Source: Candidatus Sumerlaeota bacterium (GTDB lineage: Bacteria > Sumerlaeota > Sumerlaeia > SLMS01). From it: DNA of 50,545 nt. Where the stretch lies: the NCBI GenBank assembly GCA_007133495.1, contig SLMS01000111.1, positions 1 to 50,545 on the forward strand. The letters are read 5' to 3'. Positions 3,587-38,599 of the stretch are shown here, in pieces. The notes under the pieces were generated by a model. That model was not told the DNA's origin. It ran no database searches and worked only from the letters and a program-made list of their open reading frames with translations. The number at the start of each line of letters is the position of its first letter. The first letter of the stretch is position 1. The position numbers and the translations under genes are program-made.

Positions 3587-3614
3587 TGATCCTTGCTGCG
3601 AGGTACCCGTTCCC

Positions 3615-7634: not shown

Positions 7635-9466
7635 ATCCCGCCGAAGTCCTCGAACGAGCACGCCGCGAACGCTACCGCGCCGAGGAAAACGAGGCGCTTC
7701 AGCGCCGTGGCGACCTGCGCCAGATGAAGCGCCTGTTGCGCTACCTGCGCCCCCGCCGCAAGGCCGTCATCCTGGCGATTCTCCTCTCAACGCTGATCGC
7801 CGTGCTCACCCCCCTGCCGATGGTGCTCATCAAGGAGGCCATCGACGTCTATATCATGCCCGGGAACTACGGCGGGTTGGCGCTGATGGCGGGTCTGCTG
7901 CTGCTCTCCGCAGGGATGATCTTCTTCCTGAAAAAAACCTCCCACTATATGATCGCGAAGATCGGCCAGCACACGATGCGGGACCTGCGGGAGGAGGTCT
8001 TCAGCCACATACAGTCGCAGCCGCTCCGGTTTTTCGACCGCAACCCCGTCGGCCGGCTCATCACGCGCGTGACGAGCGACGTCAACGTCCTGAACGAACT
8101 CTTCGCCCAGGGAGTTGTGGGCATTTTCCAGCAGGTGTTCTCCCTGATTGTGATCCTTGGCGTGTTGTTCTATTTCAATTGGCAGCTTACGTTGCTGATT
8201 CTGCCGGTTATTCCGCTCATTGCCCTGGCGTCCTGGAATTTCCGCAACAATGTCTTTGTGAGCTACCGGCTCACGCGCGTGCGGCTCTCCCGCCTCAACA
8301 CCTTCATGCAGGAAAACATCACCGGCATGAGGACCGTCCAGGCGAATACCCGCGAGGACCCGCAGTTCCGCCTCTTCGACGAGCTGAACCGCGCCCACCG
8401 CGACGCGCACATCAAGACGGTCTTCCAGTACGCGTTGTTCTTCCCGATCGTGGAGGTCGCGACGACGCTCGGGCTCGCCATCGTCGTCTGGCAGGGCGGC
8501 AGGATGTTCCTCGCGCCGGAGACCGCCGCCATGGGAGCGGTGACCGTCGGCCAGTTGGCGCTGTTCGTGCAGGCGCTGGAGCGCTTTTTCCAGCCGGTGA
8601 AGGACCTGTCCGAAAAGTATAACATTGTTCAGTCCGCCATCGCCGCCAGCGAGCGCCTCTTTGTGCTGCTGGACACCAAGCCGACCATCATCGACCCCGA
8701 AAACCCCGTCCATCCCGGCCAGTCACGCGGGCGTATCGAATTCCGGGACGTGTGGTTTGCCTACAATCCCGGCGAATGGGTGCTCAAGGGGGTGAGCTTC
8801 ACCGTCGAGGAGGGCCAAACCGCCGCAATCGTCGGCCCCACCGGCAGCGGAAAGACGACGCTCATGGCCCTGCTCTGCCGCTTCTACGATATACAGAAGG
8901 GGCAGATTCTGGTGGACGGCGTGGACGTACGCGAAATGCGCCAGGCGGACCTGCGCGAGAAAATCGCCATCGTCATGCAGGACGTTTTCCTCTTCCATGG
9001 CACGGTGGCCGGAAACGTGCGCCTCGGCCGCGAGTCGATCACGGACGAGCGCATCCGCGAAGTCTGCGAGCGCACCGGTTTCGACAACGTGGTACGCCGC
9101 CTGCCCAGCGGTTACGAAAGCGGCGTCAAGGAGCGCGGCGCCACGCTCAGCACCGGTGAAAAGCAACTCCTCAGCTTCGCCCGTGCCCTGGCCTTCGACC
9201 CGCATATCCTGATCCTGGACGAGGCGACGTCCAATATAGACACCGAATCCGAGCAGCAGGTCCAACGGGCCGTTGCCACGCTCTGCGCCGGCCGAACCTC
9301 CCTCGTCATCGCCCACCGGCTTTCCACCATCCAGCGCGCCCACAAGATTCTGGTCATCCACCACGGCCACCTTGTGGAGGAGGGCACGCACCAGGAGCTG
9401 CTCCGCCGCGGCGGGCTCTACAGGCGCCTCTACGACCTCCAGTACCGCGAACAAGCGGCAGGGTGA
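7631..9466 (+). CDS. ABC exporter half-transporter (TMD-NBD), variant signature LSTGE
   Basis: Walker A GPTGSGKTT, signature TLSTGEKQLLSFARAL, Walker B HILILDEATSNID, H-loop VIAHRLST; ATG overlaps upstream stop. Confidence 0.9.
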   Translation: MNPAEVLERARRERYRAEENEALQRRGDLRQMKRLLRYLRPRRKAVILAILLSTLIAVLTPLPMVLIKEAIDVYIMPGNYGGLALMAGLLLLSAGMIFFLKKTSHYMIAKIGQHTMRDLREEVFSHIQSQPLRFFDRNPVGRLITRVTSDVNVLNELFAQGVVGIFQQVFSLIVILGVLFYFNWQLTLLILPVIPLIALASWNFRNNVFVSYRLTRVRLSRLNTFMQENITGMRTVQANTREDPQFRLFDELNRAHRDAHIKTVFQYALFFPIVEVATTLGLAIVVWQGGRMFLAPETAAMGAVTVGQLALFVQALERFFQPVKDLSEKYNIVQSAIAASERLFVLLDTKPTIIDPENPVHPGQSRGRIEFRDVWFAYNPGEWVLKGVSFTVEEGQTAAIVGPTGSGKTTLMALLCRFYDIQKGQILVDGVDVREMRQADLREKIAIVMQDVFLFHGTVAGNVRLGRESITDERIREVCERTGFDNVVRRLPSGYESGVKERGATLSTGEKQLLSFARALAFDPHILILDEATSNIDTESEQQVQRAVATLCAGRTSLVIAHRLSTIQRAHKILVIHHGHLVEEGTHQELLRRGGLYRRLYDLQYREQAAG

Positions 9467-9615
9467 GGCAAACACGGCAGTCCTGCTCCCGGCATCGCCC
9501 GGCCCTGAGGTTCCGGTTGTCACCCTCCGCACCCGCCGGGGAGAGTTCCGCGCTTTGGAGCCGCCAAACGCTCCCACGCAGCTTCCACCGCCCGAACGAA
9601 CGGAACGCGAACACG

Positions 9616-10437
9616 ATGATCGAAGAAGGAATCGACCCAAACACAGTCCTCCGCGCCGAAGGACTCGCCAAGGAGTACGGCAAGGCCCGCGTCGTCAACG
9701 GTGTGGACCTTGAACTCAACACCAACGAGGTCGTCGGGCTGCTCGGCCCCAATGGCGCCGGGAAGACCACCTCCTTCAAGATGCTCGTCGGGTTCACCGC
9801 CCCCACCGAGGGGCGCGTCTTCTTCAATGACCGCGAGATCACCCGCATGCCGATCCACCACCGGGCGCGCCTGGGGATCAGCTACCTGCCCCAGGAGACC
9901 AGCGTCTTCCGGAAGATGACCGTCCGCGAAAACCTCATGGCGGTGCTCCAAGCCCGCGGCATGAGCAAGGCGGAAATCCGGCCAAGGGCCAACCAGCTCA
10001 TCGAAGAACTCGGTATCGGGTACATCCAGCACCGCATGGCGGAGAAGCTCTCCGGCGGCGAAAAGCGCAGGGTGGAGATCGCCCGAGCCCTGATGACCCG
10101 CCCCACGTTCATCTTCCTCGACGAGCCCTTCACGGGCATCGACCCCCCCACCGTCGAGGACATCCAGAACATCATCCGATCGCTGCGTGACCGCGGGCTC
10201 GGCATCCTCATTACCGACCACAACGTCCGTGAAACGCTCGGCATCACCGACCGCAGCTACATGATGTACAACGGCGACGTGCTGGTCTCGGGCGCCGTGG
10301 AGGACATCCTCAAGAACGAGCAGATCAAGGAGAAGTACCTGACGCAGAGCATCATCGCCGACCTGGCCAAGCGCGGTACCGAGGTCCTCACCGCCGCGGG
10401 CCAGCGGGGCCACGACGAACCCGGCCAGCAGGAGTGA
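9616..10437 (+). CDS. lptB: LPS export ABC transporter ATP-binding protein LptB
   Basis: LAKEYGKARVVNGVDLELNTNEVVGLLGPNGAGKTTSFKMLVGF, YLPQETSVFRKMTVREN, LSGGEKRRVEIARALMTRPTFIFLDEPFTGIDPPTVEDIQNII; in-frame ATG 9616. Confidence 0.92.
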   Translation: MIEEGIDPNTVLRAEGLAKEYGKARVVNGVDLELNTNEVVGLLGPNGAGKTTSFKMLVGFTAPTEGRVFFNDREITRMPIHHRARLGISYLPQETSVFRKMTVRENLMAVLQARGMSKAEIRPRANQLIEELGIGYIQHRMAEKLSGGEKRRVEIARALMTRPTFIFLDEPFTGIDPPTVEDIQNIIRSLRDRGLGILITDHNVRETLGITDRSYMMYNGDVLVSGAVEDILKNEQIKEKYLTQSIIADLAKRGTEVLTAAGQRGHDEPGQQE

Positions 10438-10479
10438 CCGGCACGGCGCCGCACGCCTCTGCAAGCAAATGACATAAGA

Positions 10480-10514
10480 ACCGCCCCCGGAGAGTGACCT
10501 CGTCCGGGGGCGGT
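10480..10514. terminator. Hairpin terminator between convergent genes
   Basis: Perfect 12-bp inverted repeat ACCGCCCCCGGA / TCCGGGGGCGGT between lptB (+) and the TPR gene (-). Confidence 0.75.
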
Positions 10515-10553
10515 CTGATTAAGCGGGGCGCTTGCGGGCAGAAGACCCGCCGG

Positions 10554-12209
10554 TTACCTGATCGGTCCTCGCGTGATGGTCCGCCTGCCGGGGATGGTTC
10601 CGGGGCGGTCGGTCAGTGCGTTCAGCAGGTTCTGCGCGTCGCGCAGGCGGGAGTTCAGGTCCATGCCGGACATCGGCCCGAGCGAGGGGTCCAGCCGCAG
10701 AGCGGTCTGATAGTGGTCCACCGCGCGGCGGGCGAGGGTGATGGCCTGCTGGCGTTCGCTGATGCCGAAGGTGGCGCGCCGGCGTTCGTCATGCAGCCGG
10801 TCGAGGTGGCGGAGCGCCTCGGTGTAGTACTGCATGCCGCGCTCGGCGATCTCGCGGGCCCGCTCGCGGGTCTCGGCCGCCTGCCGACGTGCCTCGATGT
10901 CGGCCCGTTGGTAGAGTTCTTCCGCCTCTTCGAGCAGTTCGTCAAAGCGGGTGTGCTCCTCGCGGAACCTCTGGGCGATGTCGCGCGCGATCAGGAACTC
11001 ACCACGGCGATAGGCTCGATCGGCACGGGCGAGCTCGGACTCGGCCTCCTCGCGCAACACCGAGAGGGCGATCTCGTTTTCCGAGTCGTAGCGCAGCACG
11101 AGTTCGATCTCCCGGTTGGCCATTCGGGTGAGTCCCTCCTCGCGAAGCTGTTGAGCCAGAAGTGCGCGCCCGTCCCAGTCCTCCTCGCCCAGTTGAGCCT
11201 TGTCCCGCTCGTACCGCAGAGCCACCAGCGGCCCGGTATCTTCGCTGGGGAAGAGCTGGAGCAGTTCCTCGTAGCGCTCGATGGCGCGCTCCCACTGGCG
11301 CCGCTCGGTCAGTTGGCCGATCAACTCGCGGTAGGAGGTGCGGAGCATCCGGTCGTAGCCCCGTCCGGCAAAGCGTGGAACTCCGTGGACGCGGCGCAGC
11401 GGCTCGATCGCCTCCTCGTAGCGCTCGGCCTCGTAGAGCAGTTCGCCGGCGACGCGGTTGTTCTCCAGGTTCGCCGGGTCTTCCTCCAGCTTGGTCATGT
11501 AGGCTTCGAGGACCTCGGGCTTCTTCTCGGGATCGTTGCGCCAGATGCGCAGGAGCCTGTCGCGGGCCTCCTGGTTGTCCGGGTCCATTTCGAGGACGCG
11601 GAGGTATTTCTCCTCGGCCGTGCGGTAGTCGAGCCGGTCATAACGCGAGAAGCCCCAGGCAAGGTACAGGTCGCGCATTAGCCGCTGTGCGGAGGCCTGT
11701 TGGTCCTCGGTGGCCCCGGACGCCAGGATCCGGTCGAGCACCTCTTCGGCGCGGTCGAAGCGCTGCTCCTCGATCATTTCGGGAATCTGTTCGAGTTCCC
11801 GGCTGATCTGTTCCCTCATCTGGCGGGAGCGCTCCTCTTGCTGCTGTTCGATGATGCTCCGCGCCTCTTCGAGTCCCTCGCGGGCCTCCTCGTGGTCCGG
11901 GTCGGCCTCGACGGCCTGCTGGAACATTCGGAGCGCGGAGGTGTAGTTGCGCGCGCGCAGGTGCTGCCGGCCGATGCGGGTCCAGTCAGTCGCGTCGTCC
12001 TCCTCGATGATCTCGGCCACGCGGGCCATGGGGAGTTCGATGCGCCCGCTGCTGCTGATGAACGCGATGCGCTCATCGCTGCCGACAACGGGCTCGACGC
12101 GGCCCTCAAGGCGCGTTCCGTCCCGCAGGACAACGATATCGGGCAGCGCGAGTGCCGGAACGAGCAGCAGCACCACCACGCTCAGGGAAAGATGAATTGG
12201 ACTTCTCAT
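10554..12209 (-). CDS. Exported tetratricopeptide-repeat protein
   Basis: Signal peptide LSVVVLLLVPALALP; TPR-like helices (RNYTSALRMFQQAVEADPDHEEAREGLEEA; YLRVLEMDPDNQEARDRLLRI). Confidence 0.82.
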   Translation of the reverse strand: MRSPIHLSLSVVVLLLVPALALPDIVVLRDGTRLEGRVEPVVGSDERIAFISSSGRIELPMARVAEIIEEDDATDWTRIGRQHLRARNYTSALRMFQQAVEADPDHEEAREGLEEARSIIEQQQEERSRQMREQISRELEQIPEMIEEQRFDRAEEVLDRILASGATEDQQASAQRLMRDLYLAWGFSRYDRLDYRTAEEKYLRVLEMDPDNQEARDRLLRIWRNDPEKKPEVLEAYMTKLEEDPANLENNRVAGELLYEAERYEEAIEPLRRVHGVPRFAGRGYDRMLRTSYRELIGQLTERRQWERAIERYEELLQLFPSEDTGPLVALRYERDKAQLGEEDWDGRALLAQQLREEGLTRMANREIELVLRYDSENEIALSVLREEAESELARADRAYRRGEFLIARDIAQRFREEHTRFDELLEEAEELYQRADIEARRQAAETRERAREIAERGMQYYTEALRHLDRLHDERRRATFGISERQQAITLARRAVDHYQTALRLDPSLGPMSGMDLNSRLRDAQNLLNALTDRPGTIPGRRTITRGPIR

Positions 12210-12484: not shown

Positions 12485-15400
12485 ATGACAAAGGCCATTG
12501 TCCACTTGGCCGCAGGGGCTGCGCTCCTTGCGGCAGCCACCGTGCCTGCTGCGCCGCTGGTCATCAACGAGTTCGTCGCCTCCAACCACGGCGGACACAC
12601 GGACTTCCAGGGGGATACCCCCGACTGGATCGAGCTGCACAACGCCGGCACGGAACCGGTGGCTCTGGAAGGCTGGGGGCTGTCCGACGACGCGGACAAC
12701 CCGCGCCGGTGGGTCTTCGAGCAGGGAATCGTCGAGCCCGGCGGCTTCCTTGTCGTCTTCGCCTCGGGGAAAGACCGGCAGGACGCCTTCGAACCGCATA
12801 CGAACTTCGCCATCAGTTCGGCCGGCGAGCCGCTTCTACTTACCGGCCCGGACGGGCATCTGGTGGACTTCGTGCCGGAGACGCCCCTGCCGGTAAACGT
12901 CTCCTTCGGCCGCAAACCCGACGCCGGCCAGGATTGGCTCTACTTCAAGGAGCCCACCCCCGGCGCGCCGAATACCTCCGCCGGTCACGTGGAAGTCCTC
13001 GAACCTCCCTCCTTCTCCCACGAGGGTGGCTTCCGTACCGAACCGTTCGAGCTGACCCTGGAGACGGACCACCCAGGCGCACAGATCATCTATACGCTGG
13101 ACGGGTCTGAGCCCACCCCGGACAAGATCGGCGGTTTCACCTATCACTACAAGCAACAGTACGCCGAGTTTCCGGGCGATCCGCTGGGGGAGTTGCTCGA
13201 ACGCACCATCGAGTCGCACTACTACGACGGAAAAAGCATTCCCATCGCCGATCGGAGCGATGAGCCGGACCGGATCGCCGGGGTCAACACGACGCTGCAC
13301 CGCGACACGTCAAGTTTCGAACCCCTCGGCCCGTCCTTCAAGGGTACGGTTGTCCGGGCACGCACGGTGCGCGAGGACGCGATACCGAGCAGGACTGTCA
13401 CGCATACCTATTTTGTGACACCTGATGGGCGGGACCGCTACGGCCTGCCCGTGGTGTCGCTCGCCATCCAGGAGGACCATCTTTTCGATTACGAGAACGG
13501 TATCTACGTGGCAGGAGTGGATTACGACGACTGGCGTATCGAGAACCCCGATGGCCAGTTCACTCCCGGGCCGGGTCCTGACAAGACGGCCACGGAAGAA
13601 CCGTCCCAGGGCTTCATCGGAAATTTCACACGCCGCGGCAGGGAGTGGGAGTACCCCGTTCATCTCGAATATTACGAGGCCGGTGCCCGGGCTGATCTGC
13701 GGCAGAATCTCGGCTTCCGTATTCACGGGGGCGGCACCCGTGCGGTCGCGATGAAGAGCTTCCGGCTTTACGCACGCAACGCCTACGACGATACAAATGT
13801 GCTCGACTACCCCTTCTTCGACTACCCCGGTTTCGTGGACAGCGCCGAGGGCAGGCCGATCAAGGAATTCCGCCGCATGATCCTCCGCAATTCAGGTCAG
13901 GACTATTTCCGCACCATGCTCGGCGATGGGTTCCTGCAGCGGATTCTCCGGCCTCTCGGGCTCGATTACCAGGAGTACTCCCCCGCCGTGGTCTTCGTAA
14001 ACGGCGAATTCTTCGGCATCATGAATTTCCGCGAGCGTATAGACCAGCACTACCTTGCAGCGCGCCACCTTGTTGACCCGGACGATGTGGCCATCCTCAC
14101 CCGAAACGCCGAAATCAGACACGGAGACGAGCGTCACCGGGAGGATTTTCTCGCCCTCCGCGAGTTCATCACCAACGAAGACATCGCCGGCCCTGACGCC
14201 TACGCCCATGTTGAAAGTGAGATGGATACCGGAAATTTCATCCGGTACAAGGCGGCGCAGATATACACCAGAAATCTGGACTGGCCGGGAAGAAACATAG
14301 ACTACTGGAGGAAGGCCACTCCCGACCTCAGCGAAGGCGCTCCCCCCGCCCATGACGGCCGCTGGCGGTGGATCGTGTTCGACCTTGATATCGCCATGGT
14401 GCCCGTCTTCGATCAGGACGCCTCCCACGACACACTCACCGCCGCAACGCTCGACCACAACGAACCGTGGCCAAACCCCGATTGGTCGAAGGTGAAGCTC
14501 CGCCGCCTGCTGGAGAACGAAACCTTCAGGCACGCGTTTATTAATGAGCTGGCAGACCAAAAGAACTCAATCTTCCGCCCGGCCCATTACGAACCCATCC
14601 TCGACCGCATGCACGAGCGTATAGACCCACACCTCGACGAACACCGCACCCGCTGGAGCGACAGCGCCAGGTTCTCCATTGATGACTTCAAGGAATTCGG
14701 CGAAGAGCGCCCCGCCTGGATTCGCCAGCATACGATCAACTATTTCGACCTTCCGGGCACCGCCACCATCACGCTCGACACGCCGAATCCCCGCAGGGGC
14801 ACCATCCGCATCAACAGCCTCAACATCGCCCCCCACCTCGAAGGACTGGAGGTCCCGCTCAAGCCGTTCCCCTGGACCGGCACCTACTTCCAGTCGGTCC
14901 CTGTCGAAATCGAGGCGATCCCGAAAGCCGGCTTCCGGTTCTCGCACTGGGATGGCGATCTGGGGGGTGAAGGACCCCTGGCAGTTCTCGCCCCTCTGGA
15001 GGAACTCCGCGCCACGGCCATCTTCGTGCCCGACGAGGGGTATCCCTGGGACACGGTTCTCCCCCAGCCGCACCGCCTCAGCGAGGTACACTATCGTTTC
15101 GATGCCTGGCCCGCCGGCGCCCCAGCCGGCACCTTCCCGCCAAACATCGTCTTCCGCCAGACGCCCGTGGGAGACCCGCTGCTCGCGGACGAACCGGATG
15201 GGCTTTGGGGGCATCCCTACGCTTTGGACAACCGCAGCCGGGTCATCGGGTTGAATGGCCTCGGCGCCGGTTTCATCAACACCTCCAACCCGCAGGAGGA
15301 CGGAGGGGGGTACGTGACGGGCGCGGAGCTGGCCCTGGACACGCGGGATTTGCTTTCCGCGCAGGTCGCCTTCACCGCCCGGACCGTCCTGCCGAACGAG

Positions 15401-15697
15401 CGAACCTACGCCCTGCGTCTCCAGTACCGGATCGGCCCGGAGGGGAGGTTCCACGACCTCCTCGACAGTCACGACAAGCCTGTCGAGTACATCCGCCACC
15501 CAACCCCGGGGCATGAGGAGCGCATCGGCCCCGTTGCGTTGCCGCGCGAGACCATCGGCCAGGAGTATGTTTCACTTCGATGGAAGTATTACTTCATCGA
15601 AACCGGCGCATCCGGCCCGCGGGCAATGCTGGCCATGGACGATGTCAGCGTGGAAGGAGAAGTCGTGGCCGATATGCCCTTCTGGGTGTTCAGATAG
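12485..15697 (+). CDS. Secreted lamin-tail / chitobiase-type / CotH-kinase multidomain protein, copy 1
   Basis: Signal peptide; LTD-like PLVINEFVASNHGG..DWIELHNAGTEPVALEGWGLSDD; IIYTLDGSEPTPD; CotH-like KSFRLYARNAYDD, FRRMILRNSGQDY, FVNGEFFGIMNFRERIDQHYL, NLDWPGRNIDYW, WRWIVFDLDIAM. Confidence 0.88.
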   Translation: MTKAIVHLAAGAALLAAATVPAAPLVINEFVASNHGGHTDFQGDTPDWIELHNAGTEPVALEGWGLSDDADNPRRWVFEQGIVEPGGFLVVFASGKDRQDAFEPHTNFAISSAGEPLLLTGPDGHLVDFVPETPLPVNVSFGRKPDAGQDWLYFKEPTPGAPNTSAGHVEVLEPPSFSHEGGFRTEPFELTLETDHPGAQIIYTLDGSEPTPDKIGGFTYHYKQQYAEFPGDPLGELLERTIESHYYDGKSIPIADRSDEPDRIAGVNTTLHRDTSSFEPLGPSFKGTVVRARTVREDAIPSRTVTHTYFVTPDGRDRYGLPVVSLAIQEDHLFDYENGIYVAGVDYDDWRIENPDGQFTPGPGPDKTATEEPSQGFIGNFTRRGREWEYPVHLEYYEAGARADLRQNLGFRIHGGGTRAVAMKSFRLYARNAYDDTNVLDYPFFDYPGFVDSAEGRPIKEFRRMILRNSGQDYFRTMLGDGFLQRILRPLGLDYQEYSPAVVFVNGEFFGIMNFRERIDQHYLAARHLVDPDDVAILTRNAEIRHGDERHREDFLALREFITNEDIAGPDAYAHVESEMDTGNFIRYKAAQIYTRNLDWPGRNIDYWRKATPDLSEGAPPAHDGRWRWIVFDLDIAMVPVFDQDASHDTLTAATLDHNEPWPNPDWSKVKLRRLLENETFRHAFINELADQKNSIFRPAHYEPILDRMHERIDPHLDEHRTRWSDSARFSIDDFKEFGEERPAWIRQHTINYFDLPGTATITLDTPNPRRGTIRINSLNIAPHLEGLEVPLKPFPWTGTYFQSVPVEIEAIPKAGFRFSHWDGDLGGEGPLAVLAPLEELRATAIFVPDEGYPWDTVLPQPHRLSEVHYRFDAWPAGAPAGTFPPNIVFRQTPVGDPLLADEPDGLWGHPYALDNRSRVIGLNGLGAGFINTSNPQEDGGGYVTGAELALDTRDLLSAQVAFTARTVLPNERTYALRLQYRIGPEGRFHDLLDSHDKPVEYIRHPTPGHEERIGPVALPRETIGQEYVSLRWKYYFIETGASGPRAMLAMDDVSVEGEVVADMPFWVFR

Positions 15698-15793
15698 CCA
15701 AACCCCGAGTTGCGACTTGCCTTCGCACCCGGCCGGCGGTTGACTCCCACCACCATTCCGAACCCGTTGGAGTACAGTCTTCCCCGTACCCAA

Positions 15794-18700
15794 ATGATCT
15801 TCAAAACATCCGACTCCCGCCACCATCCCGGGACTGCATGGCTGCTGCGATGCGCCGGGGCCCTTGCCTTTTCCTGGGCGATGACACAGGCACCGGCCGC
15901 ACCACTTGTTATTAACGAGTTCGTCGCCTCCAACCATGGCGGGCACATGGACGACCTTGGCGAAACCCCGGACTGGATCGAACTGTACAATCCCGGCACG
16001 GAGCCGGTGGACCTGGAAGGCTGGGGGCTTTCCGACGACGAGGACAACCCGCGCCGGTGGGTCTTCGAGCAGGGAACGGTTGAGCCGGGTGAGTTCTTCG
16101 TGGTCTTCGCCTCCGGGGAAGACCGCCAGGACGAAATCTCGCCGCATACGAACTTCGCCATCAGCTCCGCGGGCGAGCCCCTCATTCTGACCGGCCCGGA
16201 CGGGAACGTGGTGGACTTTGTGCCCGAAATCCCCGTCCCCACCAACATCTCCCGGGGGCGCAAGCCTGACGGCGGGGAGGACTGGTTCTACTTCGGCGAG
16301 CCCACCCCCGGAGCGCCGAACACAACAACGGCCTATTCGGAAATACTCGACCCGCCCACCTTCTCGCACGAGGGTGGCTTCTATACGGAGCCGTTCGGGC
16401 TGACCATCGAGGCGCCGGACCCGGACGCGGCGATCGTCTATACGCTTGACGGGTCGATCCCGGCAGTGGAAAACATCGGCGGCACTTCCTACTACTACAA
16501 GCCTGAATATCAGGAGCGGCCTCCCGACCCGCCGGGGGAGCTTTCCACACGCACAATTGAGTCCATGGAGCACGCGGGCGAGGGCATCCCAATCGTGGAC
16601 CGCTCCCCCGAACCCGACAGCCTCTCCGGCATCAACACCACCTGGCGGCGCGATGCCAGCCACTACGCACCCATCGAGGCGTCTTTCAAGGGCACTCCCG
16701 TCCGGGCCATTGCGGTGCGTGAGGGGGCACTGCCCAGCGAGGTCACCACACATACCTATTTTGTAACCGAACAGGGCCGCAGCCGCTATTCCCTTCCTGT
16801 AATTGCCCTGTCCATACAGGAGAACCACCTTTTCGATTACGAAGACGGTATTTATGTGCCGGGAATCCTTTTCGACCAATGGCGCGATTCAAATCCCGAC
16901 AGGTTCCCCACACACTCCACCTCCAGCAATTACAGGCGCCGTGGCAGGCAGTGGGAATTCCCCGCCTGGTTCGAATACTTTGAGGATGAGCCCCACGCCG
17001 CGGTCCGCCAGGGGTTGGGTGCACGCATCCACGGCGGCGGATCACGATACTTCGCACTGAAGAGCTTTCGTTTATATGCACGAAACGCCTACGACGACAA
17101 GAATACCCTCGACTATCCGCTCATTCCCGGGCTGACGGACCAGGCCGAGGGGCGGCCGATCACTGAGTTCCGGCGCTTTCTGCTCCGCAACTCCGGCAAC
17201 GATTATCCCCAGACAATGCTGCGCGACGCGTTTCTGCAAGAAATCGTCAAGCCGCTCGGGTTCGATCAACAGGGCTACAATCCCACCATTGTTTTCCTGA
17301 ACGGGGAGTTCTGGGGGATACTTAACATCCGCGAACGCATCGACCGCCATTACCTTGCGCGCCAGCACCTCATCGACCCCGAGGAGGTGGGCCTGCTTTC
17401 CAACAATGCGCAAGTCCAGGACGGTTCCTTTCAGAACCGGTGGGACTTTCTCGATCTGCGCGCTTACATTGCCCAGAATGACATGGACGACCCGGAGCAT
17501 TTCGACCACGTCGCCGAACAAATGGACATCGAAAACTTCATCCAGTACAACGCCCTCCAGATCATCATAAACAATATAGACTGGCCGGGCAACAACATTG
17601 ACTTCTGGCGCAAGCAGACTCCGGACCGGAGCAAGGGCGCTCCCGAAAGCCACGATGGCAGGTGGCGCTGGATCGTGTACGATCTCGACCTCGCTTTTCA
17701 CCAGACCGGAAGCCAGGGCCAGTATGATGTGGACTACGATATGTTGAGTCACGCCACCAAGCGCGGTGGCGTCGAATGGCCCAACCCCGACTGGTCCACC
17801 ACCATGCTGCGTAACCTGCTCGAAAGCGAGGAGTTCCGGAACGGTTTCATCAACGCCCTGGCCGACCAGATGAACTCCATCTTCCGGCCCGAAAACCTCG
17901 AACCTGTTCTGGACAGAATGCACGCACGCATCGCTCCGCATCTCGATGAACACCGCGCCCGGTGGCGCAACAGCGCTCAATGGACCACCCAGCACATGAA
18001 GGACTGGGGCCATGAGCGCCCGGGATATGTACGCCAGCACGTTCTCGATTTTTTCGATTTGCCGGGAACTGCTGAAGTCACACTCGACACCTCCACGCCC
18101 CGCCGCGGAGCCATCCGTATCAATAATCTGACTATTGAACCGCACCTCGAAGGACTTGCCGACCCCGGTCAGTCTTTTCCATGGACGGGAGTCTATTTTC
18201 AGACGGTTCCGATAGGCATTGAGGCTGTCCCCAAAGCGGGCTTTGCGTTCTCCCAGTGGGAGGGGGACCTTGCCGGCAGTCCGCGCGAAGTCACTGTCGA
18301 AACACCGGAGGAGTTATCCGCCACGGCCGTCTTCGTCCCCGATCAGGACTACCCCTGGAAGGGCATCCTCCCCGAGGCGCACGCGCTTGCAGCGGGTCCG
18401 TATATCTCCGGCCCTTGGCCGCGCAACGCTGACCCGGGAACCTACCCGCCGAACATGGTTTTCCGCCAGATTCCGGTGGGCGACCCGCTCCTTGCGGACG
18501 AACCGGATGAACTCTGGACTCACCCCTACGATCTCGAAAGCCGCAGCCGCGTTACAGGTCTATACGAACTTGGCTTTGCCTTTATCAACACGTCAAACCC
18601 CCAGGATGACGGCGGTGGGTACGTAACCGGAGCAGAATTGGCGATCGACACGCAAGGGGCCACGTCAGCCTTTGTCCGCTTCACTGCTGGAACTCTGCGC

Positions 18701-19003
18701 CCGAACTCTCGTCAGTACGCCCTGCGGCTGCAGTACCGCCTCGGTCCCGAAGGCCAGTTCCGAGACGTGCTGGATGCCGGCGGCGATCCCATCGAGTACG
18801 TCCGCAACGAAGAGCAAGGGCACGAACAGGAATTCGGCCCCATCGCTCTTCCTCAAGACGCCATGGACCAGCCCTACGTGACTCTGCGCTGGAAGTACTA
18901 CTATATCGAGACCGGCATTACCGGCCCACGGGCGAAGCTCTCCCTGCGCGACATTGAGGCTGAGGCAATCCCGGAGAACGCGCCAACCTGGGTCTGGCGC
19001 TGA
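15794..19003 (+). CDS. Secreted lamin-tail / chitobiase-type / CotH-kinase multidomain protein, copy 2
   Basis: Colinear paralog of 12485-15697: PLVINEFVASNHGG, IVYTLDGSIPA, KSFRLYARNAYDD, FLNGEFWGILNIRERIDRHYL, NIDWPGNNIDFW, WRWIVYDLDLAF. ORF track begins at 15710; ATG 15794 precedes a signal-like segment. Confidence 0.87.
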   Translation: MIFKTSDSRHHPGTAWLLRCAGALAFSWAMTQAPAAPLVINEFVASNHGGHMDDLGETPDWIELYNPGTEPVDLEGWGLSDDEDNPRRWVFEQGTVEPGEFFVVFASGEDRQDEISPHTNFAISSAGEPLILTGPDGNVVDFVPEIPVPTNISRGRKPDGGEDWFYFGEPTPGAPNTTTAYSEILDPPTFSHEGGFYTEPFGLTIEAPDPDAAIVYTLDGSIPAVENIGGTSYYYKPEYQERPPDPPGELSTRTIESMEHAGEGIPIVDRSPEPDSLSGINTTWRRDASHYAPIEASFKGTPVRAIAVREGALPSEVTTHTYFVTEQGRSRYSLPVIALSIQENHLFDYEDGIYVPGILFDQWRDSNPDRFPTHSTSSNYRRRGRQWEFPAWFEYFEDEPHAAVRQGLGARIHGGGSRYFALKSFRLYARNAYDDKNTLDYPLIPGLTDQAEGRPITEFRRFLLRNSGNDYPQTMLRDAFLQEIVKPLGFDQQGYNPTIVFLNGEFWGILNIRERIDRHYLARQHLIDPEEVGLLSNNAQVQDGSFQNRWDFLDLRAYIAQNDMDDPEHFDHVAEQMDIENFIQYNALQIIINNIDWPGNNIDFWRKQTPDRSKGAPESHDGRWRWIVYDLDLAFHQTGSQGQYDVDYDMLSHATKRGGVEWPNPDWSTTMLRNLLESEEFRNGFINALADQMNSIFRPENLEPVLDRMHARIAPHLDEHRARWRNSAQWTTQHMKDWGHERPGYVRQHVLDFFDLPGTAEVTLDTSTPRRGAIRINNLTIEPHLEGLADPGQSFPWTGVYFQTVPIGIEAVPKAGFAFSQWEGDLAGSPREVTVETPEELSATAVFVPDQDYPWKGILPEAHALAAGPYISGPWPRNADPGTYPPNMVFRQIPVGDPLLADEPDELWTHPYDLESRSRVTGLYELGFAFINTSNPQDDGGGYVTGAELAIDTQGATSAFVRFTAGTLRPNSRQYALRLQYRLGPEGQFRDVLDAGGDPIEYVRNEEQGHEQEFGPIALPQDAMDQPYVTLRWKYYYIETGITGPRAKLSLRDIEAEAIPENAPTWVWR

Positions 19004-19060
19004 ATCCTGGCTCGTTGAGCCAACTCCTTTATCCATGAAGGGCGGATTTCAAGAGACAGC

Positions 19061-22000
19061 ATGAAGACACTTCACCATACGAATGAGATAGCAAAGGCGC
19101 TCCGCGCCCTTCTCGTTCTCTTTTTTCTTTCGGCAATGGGCCCAATCCCCGGCGGAACACTTGTCATTAACGAGTTTGTCGCGTCCAACCATGGAGGGCT
19201 GGCCGACGAAACGGGGGAGACGCCCGACTGGGTTGAGCTGCACAACCCCGGCGCCGAGCCAGTCGCCCTCGAAGGCTGGGGGCTTTCCGACACGGAGGAA
19301 GACCCCCGCCTCTGGGTTTTCGAGAGTGGCTCGGTGGAACCCGGTGGGTTCTTCGTTGTGTTCGCCTCCGGCGAGGACCGGCAAGAAGTCTCCCCACCGC
19401 ACACAAACTTTGCCATCAGTTCCTCCGGCGAGCCGCTCATCCTCACGGATCCACTCGGCGAGGTGGTGGACTTCGTGCCGGAGGTTCCCGTCCCCACCAA
19501 CATCTCCCGCGGCCGCAAGCCGGACGGCGCGGAGGATTGGTTCTATTTTGACCAACCCACGCCCGGCGCGCCCAACACAACACCAGCCGCCACGGAAATA
19601 CTGGACCCTCCAACCTTCTCCCATGATGGCGGATTCTATACGGATCCCTTCGAACTCACCATTGAGACAGACGAGCCGGATGCGGAGATAGTCTATACCC
19701 TCGACGGATCCCTTCCGGACGCCGGCAACCTCGGCGGAACCACCTATCAATACAAGCAGCAGTACCGCGAGGACCGCGACGACCCGGATGGTGAACTGCT
19801 GACTGCCACCTATCAGTCCCACGCCTGGGACGGCGAGCCGCTCCCCATAGTTGACCGGTCGGAGGAACCTGACAGAACCACCGGCATCAATACGACTTGG
19901 CGGCAGGATTACAGCATCATCGCGCCGGACGGGCCGGTGTTCAAGGGCACCGTCGTCCGGGCGCGTGCCGTGAAGGAGGGTGCCATCCCGAGCGGCGTCG
20001 TCACGCACACCTACTTCGTTACGCCTGAAGGCCGGGAGCGTTACTCTCTTCCCGTCATCACTCTCGCAATTCAGGAAGACGAACTCTTCGACTACTACGA
20101 TGGCATCTACGTGGCCGGAATGGACTACGATTCCTGGCGCCCGCACAACCTCCACCTTGCTCCGAGCCACTCCTCCCCTGCCAACTACCACCGGCGCGGT
20201 TTGGAGACTGAGCGTCCTGTATTCTTTGAGTACTATCGTGAGAACGAGGAACACCCCGCTTTGCGGCAGAACCTGGGAACCCGGCTCCACGGTGGGTCCT
20301 CGCGCGTTCAACCGCTCAAGAGCTTCCGGCTCTATGCCCGCCGGGCATATGACGAAACTAACGTGGTCGATTTTCCCCTTCTCCCCGATCTGAGAGACTA
20401 CATCGAGCACCGCCCCATCACGGAGTTTCGCCGCTTCATCCTCCGCAATTCGGGGGCCGACTACTGGCGCACCATGATTCGCGATGCGTTCCAGCACCTT
20501 CTCATCCGCGATATCGGATTCGACTATCAGGAATACCAGCCCTCGATCATTTTCTTGAACGGGGAATTCTGGGGCATCCTCAATATCCGCGAGAGAATCG
20601 ACCGCCATTACCTGGCCCGCCGGCACCGGATCGATCCGGACGACATTGTTCTCCTGACCAGCAACGCGGTGCTCAAGGACGGCGAACCACATCACCGCCA
20701 GGAATATCTAGATCTCCGGACCTTCATAACTCAAAACGACATGAGAGACCCGGAAAACTTCGCTCACGCAGCCGATCAAATGGACATGGAGAACTTCATA
20801 CGGTACAACGCAGCAAAAATATACATGAAGAACACCGACTGGCCCAGCAATAATATAGACTTTTGGCGCAAGGCCACCCCCGACCGCAGCGAAGGCGCGC
20901 CTCCCACGCACGACGGCAGGTGGCGCTGGATCATGTTCGACATGGACGCGGGGTTCGGCGACGCGATGGACTACGATCACACCCACGATACCCTGAGCTT
21001 CGCCACCGAGCCCGGCGGGGTTTCCTGGCCCAACCCCGATTGGTCCACAACCATGCTCCGCAACCTGCTCCAGAACGAAGGCTTCCGGAATGACTTCGTG
21101 AACGAACTGGCCGACCGCATGAACACCATCTACCGTCGGGAGCATTTCGAGCCCCTCCTGGACGAAACCTACGGCCGCATCTTCCCACACATGAACGAGC
21201 ACCGCGAGCGCTGGCGCACCAGCGCCGGCCGTAGCCCGGAGTTCATGCGCCACTTCGGCCGTGAACGCCCCGAATGGATGAAGCTCCACACGGTGAACTA
21301 CTTCGCCCTGCCCGGCACCGCCGAAATTACACTCGATACGCCCGCCCCCCGGCGCGGCAGCATCCGGATCAGCAACCTTCTCATCGAACCTCAGCTCGAA
21401 GGGCTACCCGACCCCAACCGCCCCTTCCCGTGGACGGGGACCTACTTCCAAGGCATTCCGGTCGAGATCGAAGCCATCCCCAAGGCTGGGTACCAATTCT
21501 CCCACTGGGAGGGATATCTCACGGGGGAGGATGCCAACTTGACGCTCGAGCCCCCCGAGGAGCTATCCGCCACGGCCATTTTCCTCCCCGATCCGGACTA
21601 CCCCTGGGAGGAGCTACTCCCCCAGCCGCACCCGCTGCGCGAGGAGCCCTACGAGTTCCGCTACTGGCCGCGCACTGCCGAGCCGGGCACCCACCCCCCG
21701 GCGATGGTCTTCCGCCAGACCGCCCAGGCGGACCCTCTTCTCCCCGATCCGGGCGAAAACATCTGGAGCCATCCATACGACCTCGAAAGCCGCAGCCGCG
21801 TTACCGGTCTCCACGGTCTCGGGGCCGCCTTTATCAACACTTCCAATCCGCAGGAGGGCGGCGGAGGGTACGTCACCGGGGCGGAACTGGTCCTGGATAC
21901 CCGGGGTGTCACCGCGGCGGAAGTGTCCTTCACGGCAGGGACCATCCTGCCCAATGAGCGCACCTACGCCCTGCGGCTCCAACACCGTGTCGGCCCGGAG

Positions 22001-22255
22001 GGGAGGTTCCGCGACCTCCTCGACACCGCCGGGGACCCCATCGAATACGTCCGCAACCCCGAGGAGGGCCACGAGCAGGAATTCGGGCCGATCGCGCTCC
22101 CGGAGGAGCTTCTCGGCCAGCGATGGGTCTCACTAAAATGGAAGTATCACTTCATTAAAACGGGCGTAAGTGGGCCAAGAGCAATGCTCTCCCTGCGCGC
22201 TATTGTTGTGGAGGGCGAGCTGGCACCCGAGACCCCGGCTTGGGTGTTTCGATGA
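19061..22255 (+). CDS. Secreted lamin-tail / chitobiase-type / CotH-kinase multidomain protein, copy 3
   Basis: Colinear paralog: TLVINEFVASNHGG, IVYTLDGSLPD, KSFRLYARRAYDE, FLNGEFWGILNIRERIDRHYL, NTDWPSNNIDFW, WRWIMFDMDAGF. Confidence 0.88.
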   Translation: MKTLHHTNEIAKALRALLVLFFLSAMGPIPGGTLVINEFVASNHGGLADETGETPDWVELHNPGAEPVALEGWGLSDTEEDPRLWVFESGSVEPGGFFVVFASGEDRQEVSPPHTNFAISSSGEPLILTDPLGEVVDFVPEVPVPTNISRGRKPDGAEDWFYFDQPTPGAPNTTPAATEILDPPTFSHDGGFYTDPFELTIETDEPDAEIVYTLDGSLPDAGNLGGTTYQYKQQYREDRDDPDGELLTATYQSHAWDGEPLPIVDRSEEPDRTTGINTTWRQDYSIIAPDGPVFKGTVVRARAVKEGAIPSGVVTHTYFVTPEGRERYSLPVITLAIQEDELFDYYDGIYVAGMDYDSWRPHNLHLAPSHSSPANYHRRGLETERPVFFEYYRENEEHPALRQNLGTRLHGGSSRVQPLKSFRLYARRAYDETNVVDFPLLPDLRDYIEHRPITEFRRFILRNSGADYWRTMIRDAFQHLLIRDIGFDYQEYQPSIIFLNGEFWGILNIRERIDRHYLARRHRIDPDDIVLLTSNAVLKDGEPHHRQEYLDLRTFITQNDMRDPENFAHAADQMDMENFIRYNAAKIYMKNTDWPSNNIDFWRKATPDRSEGAPPTHDGRWRWIMFDMDAGFGDAMDYDHTHDTLSFATEPGGVSWPNPDWSTTMLRNLLQNEGFRNDFVNELADRMNTIYRREHFEPLLDETYGRIFPHMNEHRERWRTSAGRSPEFMRHFGRERPEWMKLHTVNYFALPGTAEITLDTPAPRRGSIRISNLLIEPQLEGLPDPNRPFPWTGTYFQGIPVEIEAIPKAGYQFSHWEGYLTGEDANLTLEPPEELSATAIFLPDPDYPWEELLPQPHPLREEPYEFRYWPRTAEPGTHPPAMVFRQTAQADPLLPDPGENIWSHPYDLESRSRVTGLHGLGAAFINTSNPQEGGGGYVTGAELVLDTRGVTAAEVSFTAGTILPNERTYALRLQHRVGPEGRFRDLLDTAGDPIEYVRNPEEGHEQEFGPIALPEELLGQRWVSLKWKYHFIKTGVSGPRAMLSLRAIVVEGELAPETPAWVFR

Positions 22256-22433: not shown

Positions 22434-23084
22434 ATGTCTCGCAGCACTAACTACATACCATCAACGGCCCCGGCGGGCTCCTCCGCCGTGGTGCCGGCCT
22501 CCAGGAGGGAAGCCGGTACCGAGGGGGACCCCCCAACTACCGGGCCGGAACGGCGTGCGGAACACGGCTGCCAGCTAAGGGTTCTGCACTCCATCCGGCG
22601 AATCATCCGCTCAGTCGATCTCTACTCCAAGCAGCTCTCCGGCTGCCACGGCATCACGGTGCCGCAGTTGGTGGCGCTTTTGGCCGTGTGCGAGCACGGT
22701 TCGCTGACCGTAACCGGGCTTGGCAAGCTGGTCCACGTCAGCCCGAGCACCCTGATCGGTGTGGTGGACAGGCTGGAGGAGAAGGGGCTGGTGGTCCGCG
22801 AGCGCAGCGGGAGGGACCGCCGGCTCGTGCACCTCTACCCGACCGAGGCGGGGATGGAACTGGCCCGGAGTTCGCCCTCTCCGCTGCAGCAGGGTCTTGT
22901 GGAGGCTCTCGACGCCCTGCCCGAGGATGAGCAGGCCATGCTGGCCTCCGCTCTGGAACGCATCGTGGACCTCATGGAAACCGGAAGGCTTGGGGGCGTT
23001 CCCGTGCCCGAAGCGGCAGATGTCGGCGTCGCCGAAAGCGCATTCTGCCCGGACGAAACCACTCGACTGGAGCACGAACCTTGA
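22434..23084 (+). CDS. ectR: MarR-family regulator (EctR-like by position)
   Basis: LTVTGLGKLVHVSPSTLIGVVDRLEEKGLVVRERSGRDRRLVHLYPTEAG winged helix; stop overlaps ectA start. Confidence 0.8.
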   Translation: MSRSTNYIPSTAPAGSSAVVPASRREAGTEGDPPTTGPERRAEHGCQLRVLHSIRRIIRSVDLYSKQLSGCHGITVPQLVALLAVCEHGSLTVTGLGKLVHVSPSTLIGVVDRLEEKGLVVRERSGRDRRLVHLYPTEAGMELARSSPSPLQQGLVEALDALPEDEQAMLASALERIVDLMETGRLGGVPVPEAADVGVAESAFCPDETTRLEHEP

Positions 23085-23632
23085 CCAGCACGACGCAACC
23101 GGACAAGGAGTCCGGCACGGACATCGCATTCCGCCTTCCCAGGAGCGAGGACGGGGCCCGCATGCTGGAGCTGGTCAAGGCCAGCCCGCCGCTGGAGCCC
23201 AACACCTGCTACGCGTACCTTCTGTTGTGTCATCACTTTCGCGAGACGTGCGTGGTGGCAGAGCAGGAGGGCGAGTTGCGGGGGTTCGTGGTGGGCTACC
23301 GCCCGCCAAAGGAGCCGGACACCGTTTTCGTCTGGCAGATCGCCGTCAGCTCGAAAGCCCGGGGACAGGGACTTGGCAAACGCCTCCTCGAGCAACTCCT
23401 CGCAGCACAGCCCGAGGGCAGCGTTCGCTACCTGACCTCGACGGTGACACCAGACAACGAACCTTCCGCGCGCCTGTTCCGCTCCTACGCGGAAAAACTC
23501 GGCGTTCCGTGCGAGGAATCAAAACTCTTCGGTGCGGAAGCCTTCGGAAAAGACCAACACCACGAGGAGGAACACCTCTTCCGAATCGGGCCGCTCCCCG
23601 GCAGCGGCCGCACACCTCACACACCCCTCTAA
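23081..23632 (+). CDS. ectA: L-2,4-diaminobutyric acid acetyltransferase
   Basis: GNAT motifs: LEPNTCYAYLLLCHHFRETCVVAE, FVWQIAVSSKARGQGLGKRLLEQLL, YLTSTVTPDNEPSARLF; precedes ectBC. TTG start. Confidence 0.93.
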   Translation: MTSTTQPDKESGTDIAFRLPRSEDGARMLELVKASPPLEPNTCYAYLLLCHHFRETCVVAEQEGELRGFVVGYRPPKEPDTVFVWQIAVSSKARGQGLGKRLLEQLLAAQPEGSVRYLTSTVTPDNEPSARLFRSYAEKLGVPCEESKLFGAEAFGKDQHHEEEHLFRIGPLPGSGRTPHTPL

Positions 23633-23652
23633 GGACCAGGGAGTACACAACC

Positions 23653-24951
23653 ATGGAAATCTTCAACAGACTCGAATCCGAAGTTCGCGGCTACATCCGC
23701 TCCTTCCCCACCGTCTTCACCGAAGCGAAGGGCGCCCTCCTGACCAATGAAGAAGGCAACGAGTACGTTGACTTCTTCGCCGGTGCGGGTTCGCTCAACT
23801 ACGGACACAACAACCCCGTGCTCAAGGAGCACCTCATCGCCTACATGGAGAGCGACGGGGTCACTCACGGGCTCGATATGGCCACGGAGGCCAAGCAGGC
23901 TTTCCTCCAGACCTTCGAGGACAAAATCCTGCGCCCGCGCAACATGCGCTACAAGATCCAGTTCACCGGCCCCACCGGCACCAACGCCGTCGAGGCGGCC
24001 CTCAAGCTCGCCCGCATGGTGAAGAAGCGCGAAAACGTCATCTCCTTCACCCACGGGTTTCATGGCCTTTCGATGGGGTCGCTCGGGGCCACCAGCAACC
24101 GCAAGTTCCGCGAATCCGCCGGGATGACGCCCCCGGGCGTGACCTTCCTCCCCTTCGACGGATACCTGGGTGAGGACATCGACACGACCGAGTACCTGGA
24201 GAAAGTCCTGACGGACCCCGGCTCGGGCGTGGACCTGCCCGCCGCGGTCATCGTCGAAACCGTCCAGGGCGAAGGCGGCGTCAACGTCGCCAGCTTCGAA
24301 TGGCTGCGTTCGCTGGAGCAGGTCTGCCGCAACCACGGCATCCTGCTGATCGTGGACGACATTCAGGTGGGCTGCGGGCGCACCGGGCCGTTCTTCAGCT
24401 TCGAGAAGGCCGGCATCTCGCCCGACATCATCACGCTCTCCAAGTCGCTCAGTGGCTACGGCCTCCCGATGTCCATCGTCCTGATGAAGCCGGAACTCGA
24501 CATCTGGAAGCCGGGCGCCCACACGGGCACCTTCCGCGGCAACAACCTGGCCTTCGTGACCGCGAAGGCCGCCATCGACGAGTACTGGAGCGACGACCGC
24601 TTCACCAAGGAAGTCGAGGCAAAGGCCAAGCTCATGCGCGATTGGCTCGAACACATCGCCGAGAGCTACCCCGAAGGCGGCTTCTCCGTGCGCGGCCGCG
24701 GCATGGTCCAGGCCATCTGCACCGAGGAAGACCACAGCCTGGCGGACAAGATCACCGCCGCAGCCTTCAAGCGCGGCCTGGTCATCGAGACCTCCGGATC
24801 GAACAGCGAGGCGATTAAATTGCTGCCTTCGCTGACGATCGAGGAAGATCTGCTTGAAAAGGGCCTCCAGCTTTTGGAGGAAAGCGTTGTTGAGATTCTG
24901 GGCGTCAAGCCGGCGCCCTACAGCCGAATGACAGCAGGAGCAAAAAAGTAA
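23653..24951 (+). CDS. ectB: Diaminobutyrate--2-oxoglutarate transaminase
   Basis: MEIFNRLESEVRGYIRSFPTVFTEAKGALLTNEEGNEYVDFFAGAGSLNYGHNNP; PLP region DIITLSKSLSGYGLPM. ATG 23653 within the long 22759-24951 ORF. Confidence 0.96.
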   Translation: MEIFNRLESEVRGYIRSFPTVFTEAKGALLTNEEGNEYVDFFAGAGSLNYGHNNPVLKEHLIAYMESDGVTHGLDMATEAKQAFLQTFEDKILRPRNMRYKIQFTGPTGTNAVEAALKLARMVKKRENVISFTHGFHGLSMGSLGATSNRKFRESAGMTPPGVTFLPFDGYLGEDIDTTEYLEKVLTDPGSGVDLPAAVIVETVQGEGGVNVASFEWLRSLEQVCRNHGILLIVDDIQVGCGRTGPFFSFEKAGISPDIITLSKSLSGYGLPMSIVLMKPELDIWKPGAHTGTFRGNNLAFVTAKAAIDEYWSDDRFTKEVEAKAKLMRDWLEHIAESYPEGGFSVRGRGMVQAICTEEDHSLADKITAAAFKRGLVIETSGSNSEAIKLLPSLTIEEDLLEKGLQLLEESVVEILGVKPAPYSRMTAGAKK

Positions 24952-24952
24952 T

Positions 24953-25411
24953 ATGATCGTACGCACCGTAGAAGAAACCTTCGGCACCGACGCCGAGGTC
25001 AAAACCCCCAACTGGGTCAGCAGAAGGCTGCTGCTCAAACGCGACGGGATGGGGTACTCCGTCCACGAGACCACGATCTACGCGGGCACGGAAACCTACA
25101 TCTGGTACAAGAACCACCTTGAGGCAGTCTTCTGCGTCGCGGGCGAAGGCGAAGTGGAACTGATCCCCAGCGGCGAGAAGTTCCGCATCGTGCCGGGCAC
25201 GATCTACGCCCTCGACAAGCACGACAAACATTACCTGCGGGCCTTCAAGGACCTGCGGCTCGTGTGTGTGTTCGGTCCGGCGCTCACCGGGCGGGAGGTT
25301 CACGACGAGGAAGGTGTTTATCCGCTGATCGAGGAGGAAGAGGAGACCGTCATCGAAGAGGAAGTGACGCTGGAGAAAGACAAGCAGGGAGGTAACTCCG
25401 CCAGCGCCTGA
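24953..25411 (+). CDS. ectC: L-ectoine synthase
   Basis: MIVRTVEETFGTDAEV...TETYIWYKNHLEAVFCVAGEGEVELIPSGEKFRIVPGTIYALDKHDKHYLRA. Confidence 0.96.
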   Translation: MIVRTVEETFGTDAEVKTPNWVSRRLLLKRDGMGYSVHETTIYAGTETYIWYKNHLEAVFCVAGEGEVELIPSGEKFRIVPGTIYALDKHDKHYLRAFKDLRLVCVFGPALTGREVHDEEGVYPLIEEEEETVIEEEVTLEKDKQGGNSASA

Positions 25412-25446
25412 CTTCCCCCTCCCCGACCCCGTATCGTTGGCCGTAC

Positions 25447-25484
25447 CACGCGAGCCTGCTTCCATTGCGAAGCAGGCTCGCGTG
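25447..25484 (+). promoter_or_regulatory. Strong hairpin in the ectC-ectD intergenic region
   Basis: Perfect 16-bp stem CACGCGAGCCTGCTTC / GAAGCAGGCTCGCGTG with 6-nt loop CATTGC; no U-tract follows. Confidence 0.85.
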
Positions 25485-25524
25485 TCCCCAACAAAATCCC
25501 GAAGCCGAAGGAGGACCAGACATC

Positions 25525-26451
25525 ATGGCAATTGTCCAGGACCTGTATCCCTCGCGCCAACAGGACAAGCCTGAGATCATCGAACGGAAGGACCCGGTGA
25601 TCAACACAAGGCCGGAGGATGCAGACGGCTCCGGCCTCACTGCCGAGCAACTCCGGCAGTACGAAAGGGACGGTTTCATCGCCCTCCCGCAGTTCTTCAC
25701 CCCCGAGGAGGTCGCTGTATTCCGTAAGGAACTGACCCGGATGACGAACGACCCCGAGACCATCCGGCGGCAGGAAGCGGTGAAGGAGCCCAACAGCGAC
25801 ATCGTCCGCTCGATCTTCTGCGTGCACAAGCTCAGCTCGCTCTTCGACCGGCTCAGCCGGCACCCCCGCCTGCTCGCCATCGCCGGGCAGATTCTCGGCG
25901 GCGGCGTTTACATCCACCAGTCGCGCGTCAACATGAAGCCGGGCTTCAAGGGCCAGGGATTCTACTGGCACTCGGACTTCGAAACGTGGCACGTTGAGGA
26001 CGGTCTGCCGCGGATGCGCACGGTGAGCTGCTCGATCACCCTGACCGAGAACAACGAGTTCAACGGGCCGCTCATGCTCATTCCGGGCTCCCAGAACCAC
26101 TATATCGCTTGCGTGGGGGAGACTCCCGAGGACAACTACAAGAGTTCGCTCCGCGCCCAGAAGGTCGGTACGCCGGACGACGAAAGCCTCACCCAGCTCG
26201 CAGAAAGCGGCGGCATCAAGGCCCCCAAGGGACCCGCTGGCACCGTCCTCCTCTTTGACTGCAACACCATGCACGGCTCGAACAGCAACATTTCTCCTTT
26301 CCCCCGCAGCAACGTGTTCTTTGTGTACAACAGTATCGAGAATGCGCCGGTGGAGCCGTGGTCCGGCCAGAAGCCCAGGCCCCCCTTCATCGCCGAACGA
26401 GAGGACATCAGCCCCCTCGAACCCACTCAGAACCCGGACTTCGTATCATGA
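25525..26451 (+). CDS. ectD: Ectoine 5-hydroxylase
   Basis: GFYWHSDFETWHVEDGLPRMRTVSCSITLTENNEFNGPLMLIPGSQ plus the NTMHGS iron-ligand region; ATG 25525 after GGAGG. Confidence 0.95.
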   Translation: MAIVQDLYPSRQQDKPEIIERKDPVINTRPEDADGSGLTAEQLRQYERDGFIALPQFFTPEEVAVFRKELTRMTNDPETIRRQEAVKEPNSDIVRSIFCVHKLSSLFDRLSRHPRLLAIAGQILGGGVYIHQSRVNMKPGFKGQGFYWHSDFETWHVEDGLPRMRTVSCSITLTENNEFNGPLMLIPGSQNHYIACVGETPEDNYKSSLRAQKVGTPDDESLTQLAESGGIKAPKGPAGTVLLFDCNTMHGSNSNISPFPRSNVFFVYNSIENAPVEPWSGQKPRPPFIAEREDISPLEPTQNPDFVS

Positions 26452-27362: not shown

Positions 27363-27383
27363 GAGGATAGCCCGCACGAGCCA

Positions 27384-28058: not shown

Positions 28059-28061
28059 GCC

Positions 28062-28742: not shown

Positions 28743-28758
28743 GAGACAGGTTCCCGCC

Positions 28759-38595: not shown

Positions 38596-38599
38596 TGGC

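Follow-up and report, generated by a model that had tools for sequence, protein, structure and literature searches.

A tandem array of divergent, putatively secreted CotH-family proteins with conserved catalytic residues and a CotH-linked C-terminal domain in a Candidatus Sumerlaeota genome

The window analysed here, a stretch of 50,545 bp that constitutes a complete contig of a Candidatus Sumerlaeota genome, carries three co-directional open reading frames, 61-65% identical, which lie in tandem on the forward strand (12485-22255) and appear from their sequences to represent a divergent, secreted branch of the CotH family in which the catalytic triad is intact, the nucleotide pocket seems to have changed and a new domain is linked to CotH. 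The best single explanation, to which we give a probability of about 0.5, is that they are exported, surface- or matrix-tethered phosphotransferases with a putative kinase activity. The genome comprises 3,733,477 bases in 344 contigs, has a completeness of 88.7% and encodes five CotH genes. The host MAG, which matches 'Bacterium CSSed165cm_369' (Sumerlaeota), originates from sediment of Cock Soda Lake, Siberia, at pH 10.1 and approximately 70 g/L salt (PMC8092238).

The array is composed of the following genes:

12485..15697, + strand: W1, CotH-array copy 1, 1070 aa, with an RBS-like AGGAAGGG ahead of the ATG
15794..19003, + strand: W2, CotH-array copy 2, 1069 aa from the likely ATG
19061..22255, + strand: W3, CotH-array copy 3, 1064 aa

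The mechanical start of W2 is a TTG at 15710, giving a protein of 1097 aa, but the ATG at 15794 is probably the correct start. The gap between W1 and W2 is 96 bp, or 12 bp if the TTG is taken as the start, and that between W2 and W3 is 57 bp. The layout described in the initial annotation, three tandem ORFs of about 1,070 aa with gaps below 100 bp, is thus borne out by coordinates, sizes and gaps, and the motifs it quoted (LVINEFVASNHGG; NLDWPGRN, NIDWPGNN and NTDWPSNN; FDLD, YDLD and FDMD) were all located in the sequence. Codon use is uniform over W1, W2 and W3, and the N-termini of all three, judged by eye, resemble signal peptides without a lipobox Cys. Scans for promoters and terminators remained at chance level.

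Each protein displays, in this order, a signal peptide, an LTD, a chitobiase/Fn3-associated domain, a CotH core, an InlB-like repeat and a C-terminal domain that has no Pfam model:

W1 12548..12874, W2 15887-16222, W3 19151-19477, + strand: LTD (Pfam)
W1 13028..13411, W2 16370-16759, W3 19625-20014, + strand: CHB_HEX_C_1 / Fn3_assoc stretch (Pfam)
13718..14722, + strand: CotH core of W1 (Pfam, profile comparison)
17024..18028, + strand: CotH core of W2 (Pfam, profile comparison)
20282..21280, + strand: CotH core of W3 (Pfam, profile comparison)
W1 14879..14968, W2 18212-18340, W3 21437-21583, + strand: InlB-like (PF18998) stretch (Pfam)
15056..15664, + strand: C-terminal domain of W1 (no Pfam model)
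18365..18970, + strand: C-terminal domain of W2 (no Pfam model)
21617..22219, + strand: C-terminal domain of W3 (no Pfam model)

The LTD, chitobiase-type and CotH domains, proposed earlier from the letters alone, were confirmed by Pfam in all three copies. The LTD (PF00932) was matched with E-values of 8e-14 to 9e-17 (52-62 bits, against a cut-off of 34.3), Fn3_assoc and CHB_HEX_C_1 overlap on one stretch (E of about 1e-5 to 1e-6), and CotH (PF08757) was found with E-values of 1.4e-43 (W1), 4.9e-49 (W2) and 4.4e-43 (W3), at 148-168 bits against a curated cut-off of 23.8 and covering almost the whole profile length. The domain previously described as repeat-like (EIEA(I/V)PKAG) is real and corresponds to PF18998, the divergent InlB B-repeat, which among W1-W3 passes its cut-off in W3 alone and also does so in several relatives. 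No NCBIfam model matched the W1-W3 proteins, and neither dockerin nor cohesin modules were matched in them by Pfam or NCBIfam.

The combination of domains that the initial annotation presented as a fusion is therefore present in every copy, but the LTD-Fn3-CotH architecture is already known and is common in relatives. Cthe_0239 of C. thermocellum, which is found among the cellulosomal proteins, consists of LTD, LTD, Fn3 and CotH (PMC6083626), and in view of this precedent of a secreted LTD-Fn3-CotH combination the LTD-CotH fusion is not new; Cthe_0239 is listed with a type I dockerin, which the window's proteins appear to lack. Proteins of Sumerlaeota and Opitutales with LTD, CHB_HEX_C/Fn3_assoc, CotH and InlB-like domains have the identical domain order and partly share the C-terminal domain.

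The window's CotH proteins are, as judged by profile comparison, a remote branch of the CotH family, and all 11 members of the branch match PF08757. A diverse profile built from 29 CotH domains of Sumerlaeota and one Opitutales genome found B. cereus CotH (5jd9/5jda) with E=2.7e-42 over 305 residues. Since a profile made from the branch only reached 5jd9, its sole match in the PDB, at E=0.0042, the branch is distant from Bacillus CotH; when the PDB was searched by sequence, neither a single window protein nor the three-sequence profile gave a match. In the profile alignment the N-x-D-x4-N motif falls on the Bacillus sequence NFDGFVHN and the D-x-D motif on DYD, which places the catalytic positions of W1 as follows:

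14279..14296, + strand: catalytic loop of W1, D599-x4-N604, equivalents of PKA D166 and N171
14381..14389, + strand: W1 D633-L-D635, with the metal-binding Asp, D633 being the equivalent of PKA D184

CotH is known to retain equivalents of PKA D166, N171 and D184 (review, PMC12189002), and in B. subtilis CotH the replacements D228Q and D251A inactivate the enzyme (PMC7821199). D599 and D633 of W1 align with these inactivation-sensitive residues D228 and D251, and N604 with the counterpart of PKA N171. The homologous core of approximately 300 residues thus shares with Bacillus CotH the catalytic D and N, the metal Asp and an identical D-x4-N spacing. The stretch from catalytic loop to metal Asp measures 34 residues in the window, 11 more than the 23 residues that separate NFDGFVHN and DYD in 5jd9/5jda and, equally, D228 and D251 in B. 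subtilis.

Conservation of these positions, as expected from the initial annotation, was found in W1, W2, W3 and their orthologs, and extends well beyond them. Among 264 well-filled columns of the 29 diverse domains, D599, N604 and D633 occupy conservation ranks 4, 2 and 1 (p of about 1.3e-6 for three preset columns), and all three residues of the D/N/D triad occur in 68 of 74 unique CotH domains from two phyla, with the metal Asp present in 74 of 74. A full-length AlphaFold2 model based on six sequences had a pLDDT of 39, too low to place the catalytic residues.

The adenine pocket differs. In Bacillus CotH the adenine is sandwiched by Tyr142 and Trp245 (review, PMC12189002). At the Tyr142 position, around which the alignment is uncertain, the window's CotH branch has A, G or V, while Trp245 is replaced by F or Y in the window and by V in one relative. 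The same tendency is seen in the wider class to which the window's proteins belong, defined by a DWPxN motif and a spacing of 31-38 residues to the metal Asp: D, V, A, T or G takes the Tyr142 position in 20 of its 22 domains, although the alignment there is not firm, and Y or F the Trp245 position in 16 of 22, whereas 30 of the 37 domains in the 'other' class, from which the DW motif is absent, carry Y, F or W at the Tyr142 position. The Tyr142 aromatic of the adenine clamp therefore looks lost from the window's branch. Because its counterpart appears to be missing, the use of ATP is not assured; this apparent loss is nevertheless a warning and not a disproof, since the Tyr142 alignment is not firm and the model with pLDDT 39 is not usable for the core.

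The last 210 or so residues of W1-W3 form a conserved C-terminal domain that was not noted in the initial annotation. Scanning 21 members against Pfam (E up to 1) gave nothing, and a sequence search of the PDB gave no match. Proteins from Sumerlaeota and from the phylum of the Opitutales genome also carry the domain, which is near-strictly linked to CotH. Across 13 Sumerlaeota genomes it was found in 13 complete ORFs, every one of which has CotH as well, two more matches being truncated by contig ends; in 145 genomes of the other phylum this holds for 12 of 12 strongly matching ORFs, the sole exception over the approximately 157 genomes of the two phyla being one marginal match (E=9e-4). This linkage speaks against a role as a general sorting signal. 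The domain was modelled as a beta-sandwich (pLDDT 76, pTM 0.79), and in a fold search its best neighbours of known structure included many carbohydrate-binding and adhesin-like jelly rolls (CBM4, CBM16, CBM6, CBM22 and gingipain K1/K3), together with those of viral capsids, all with TM <0.5 and taken as an indication of fold class only. At that level the domain is predicted to be a jelly roll resembling CBM4/16/6/22. Over the 21 sequences, 19 columns do not vary, and Arg accounts for five of these.

By protein, the closest public relative is Candidatus Sumerlaeota CSSed165cm_452, and the sister genome possesses a syntenic locus with two CotH copies compared with three in the window. W3 is the ortholog of the second of these (70%; 100% support), and W1, W2 and the first copy are roughly equidistant. 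Between the sister genomes, identity is 59-70% for the CotH proteins, while it is 74-93% for most syntenic flanking genes and 65% for the MarR gene; the CotH paralogs in the array diverge fast. CotH is present in 25 of 40 Sumerlaeota genomes and in 29 of 145 genomes of the phylum of the Opitutales genome, with up to 14 copies each. One distant CotH locus was found on viral contigs; a DNA scan for the consensus motif gave none.

The genes surrounding the array are of an ordinary metabolic kind. Upstream lie ABC transporters together with a divergent TPR gene, and downstream a MarR-ectoine-uptake cluster. The latter raises the question of whether the array belongs to this osmolyte cluster and acts in the salt response, as MarR, ectoine-synthesis, PhyH and ABC transporter genes lie directly downstream in an order kept in the sister genome. 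The ectoine cluster, however, opens with its own MarR regulator, and other CotH genes of the lineage adjoin unrelated genes, such as trpE at another CotH locus in the genus. A survey for co-conserved neighbours, suggested by the initial annotation, yielded no non-CotH partner: over 11 CotH loci the sole clear repeat was trpE with its adjoining genes, via within-genus synteny. We consider a link between the array and ectoine very improbable and have set it aside.

In Bacillus, CotH belongs to the spore coat and has CotB/CotG as substrates, in contrast to the window's core, which sits in a predicted secreted multi-domain protein. Spo0A_C was not found in the array's own genome, at its completeness of 88.7%, or in three relatives, four Sumerlaeota genomes altogether (B. 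subtilis served as positive control), in agreement with the earlier remark that nothing hints at sporulation. The remark that no CotB/CotG-like substrate gene is adjacent likewise holds: none was found near the array, nor was any SKR-rich repeat gene, and the window contains a single Ser/Lys/Arg-rich protein, a DUF4912 protein with no signal peptide, encoded 10 kb from the array.

In the mechanism that we infer, each protein would be exported by Sec, and a CotH-fold atypical-kinase core would be held between beta-sandwich binding modules, with LTD and chitobiase/Fn3-like modules at the front and the InlB-like and new CBM-like domains at the rear. These modules would anchor the core at the cell surface or in the extracellular matrix, where it may move phosphate from a nucleotide to protein or glycan via the D-x4-N / D metal site. 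Within the array, paralogs become more numerous and diverge rapidly, presumably to serve different targets. The earlier proposal of exported paralogous CotH kinases stands as regards exported-type CotH paralogs that keep D/N/D; an active kinase is not established, and the clamp does not appear intact. Counting against phosphotransferases are that no extracytoplasmic ATP source was identified, the absence of a substrate gene, the apparent loss of Tyr142, the change of Trp245 to F/Y or V, the E-value of 0.0042 of the branch profile and the lack of a confident core model. Fam20C and Fam20B are eukaryotic Golgi enzymes, and Fam20B is a kinase-fold enzyme that phosphorylates glycan; these secretory-pathway kinases offer an analogy for an extracytoplasmic location. 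CotH is distantly related to Fam20C (PMC7821199).

The conserved D/N/D set, combined with a clamp Tyr replaced in the window's class and mostly aromatic in the 'other' domains, could also mean that the core keeps its metal site but uses another nucleotide pocket or donor, performing a different transfer, such as AMPylation or glutamylation, or glycan phosphorylation as in Fam20B. Kinase-fold proteins with AMPylation or glutamylation activity exist, SelO and SidJ being precedents, and the accessory domains look like carbohydrate-associated folds. We regard this as possible but unlikely: with the poor alignment near Tyr142 another residue may supply the clamp, and no direct sign of any alternative donor was seen. 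A similarly doubtful explanation is that the proteins are surface adhesins or scaffolds without enzymatic activity, in which the CotH fold acts as a binding module beside the LTD, chitobiase-like, InlB-like and CBM-like domains. Many of the modules are of binding type, the fast divergence is like that of surface proteins, and cellulosomal CotH proteins are described as having an unclear role, structural or regulatory (2025 review, PMC12484212), with plant-wall binding suggested as well (PMC8665504). A pure scaffold would, however, not be expected to keep three catalytic positions as top columns 1, 2 and 4 over two phyla. More speculatively, and in our estimation improbable, the N-terminal-LTD CotH branch may be a class of its own of secreted kinase-fold transferases, in which the catalytic metal site was retained and the nucleotide pocket remodelled for another donor, and whose CotH-linked, CBM-like C-terminal domain, with its five invariant Arg, would present a particular matrix substrate that is acidic or phosphorylated.

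The array is a real, ordinary-to-interesting family expansion, and its C-terminal domain by itself would merit a new family model. Little is known of bacterial phosphorylation beyond the cytoplasm, including which donor and substrates secreted CotH proteins use. With its conserved catalytic site, apparently altered adenine pocket and CotH-linked, Pfam-less domain, the window's branch offers a clear biochemical test.

The tandem CotH genes of the window are followed, on their 3' side, by a cluster for ectoine synthesis and import, which is consistent with the saline soda-lake habitat. A cytochrome bd-like pair recognised by eye further downstream suggests oxygen tolerance.

Window 22434-29553, + strand: MarR regulator, ectA-position gene, class-III aminotransferase (ectB-like), ectoine synthase, PhyH (ectoine hydroxylase-like), solute-binding protein, two permeases and ATPase
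Window 37090-39616, + strand: two cytochrome bd oxidase-like genes, subunits I and II
Window 32372-33694, - strand: DUF4912 protein

The N-terminus of the DUF4912 protein is strongly Lys/Ser-rich, with S/K/R making up 57% of 40 residues, and the protein has no signal peptide.

A second CotH locus adjoins trpE on two contigs.

L042 (G001:C208), 3-4739: trpE-side CotH locus
L043 (G000:C88), 6840-10979: trpE-side CotH locus

In the sister genome this locus is likewise a tandem array, its upstream copy being truncated by the contig end. Between L042 and L043 the CotH genes are just 44% identical, compared with 85% for trpE.

LTD/CotH-like proteins also occur on viral- or phage-labelled contigs (locus L097, IMGVR_UViG_3300012148_000139; phage-collection records MT838813, MT835546, MT837413 and MT839184), where the DNA may be bacterial and misassigned, or the genes may be carried by phage.

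A second DWPxN-like CotH class (L018, L031, L033, L037, L054, L062, L067 and others) is distinguished by a short spacing of 24-25 residues and by a W-D-(A/S)-E motif that replaces D-x-D, and it too is missing the Tyr142 aromatic. Judged from these motifs, CotH may comprise several catalytic subclasses.
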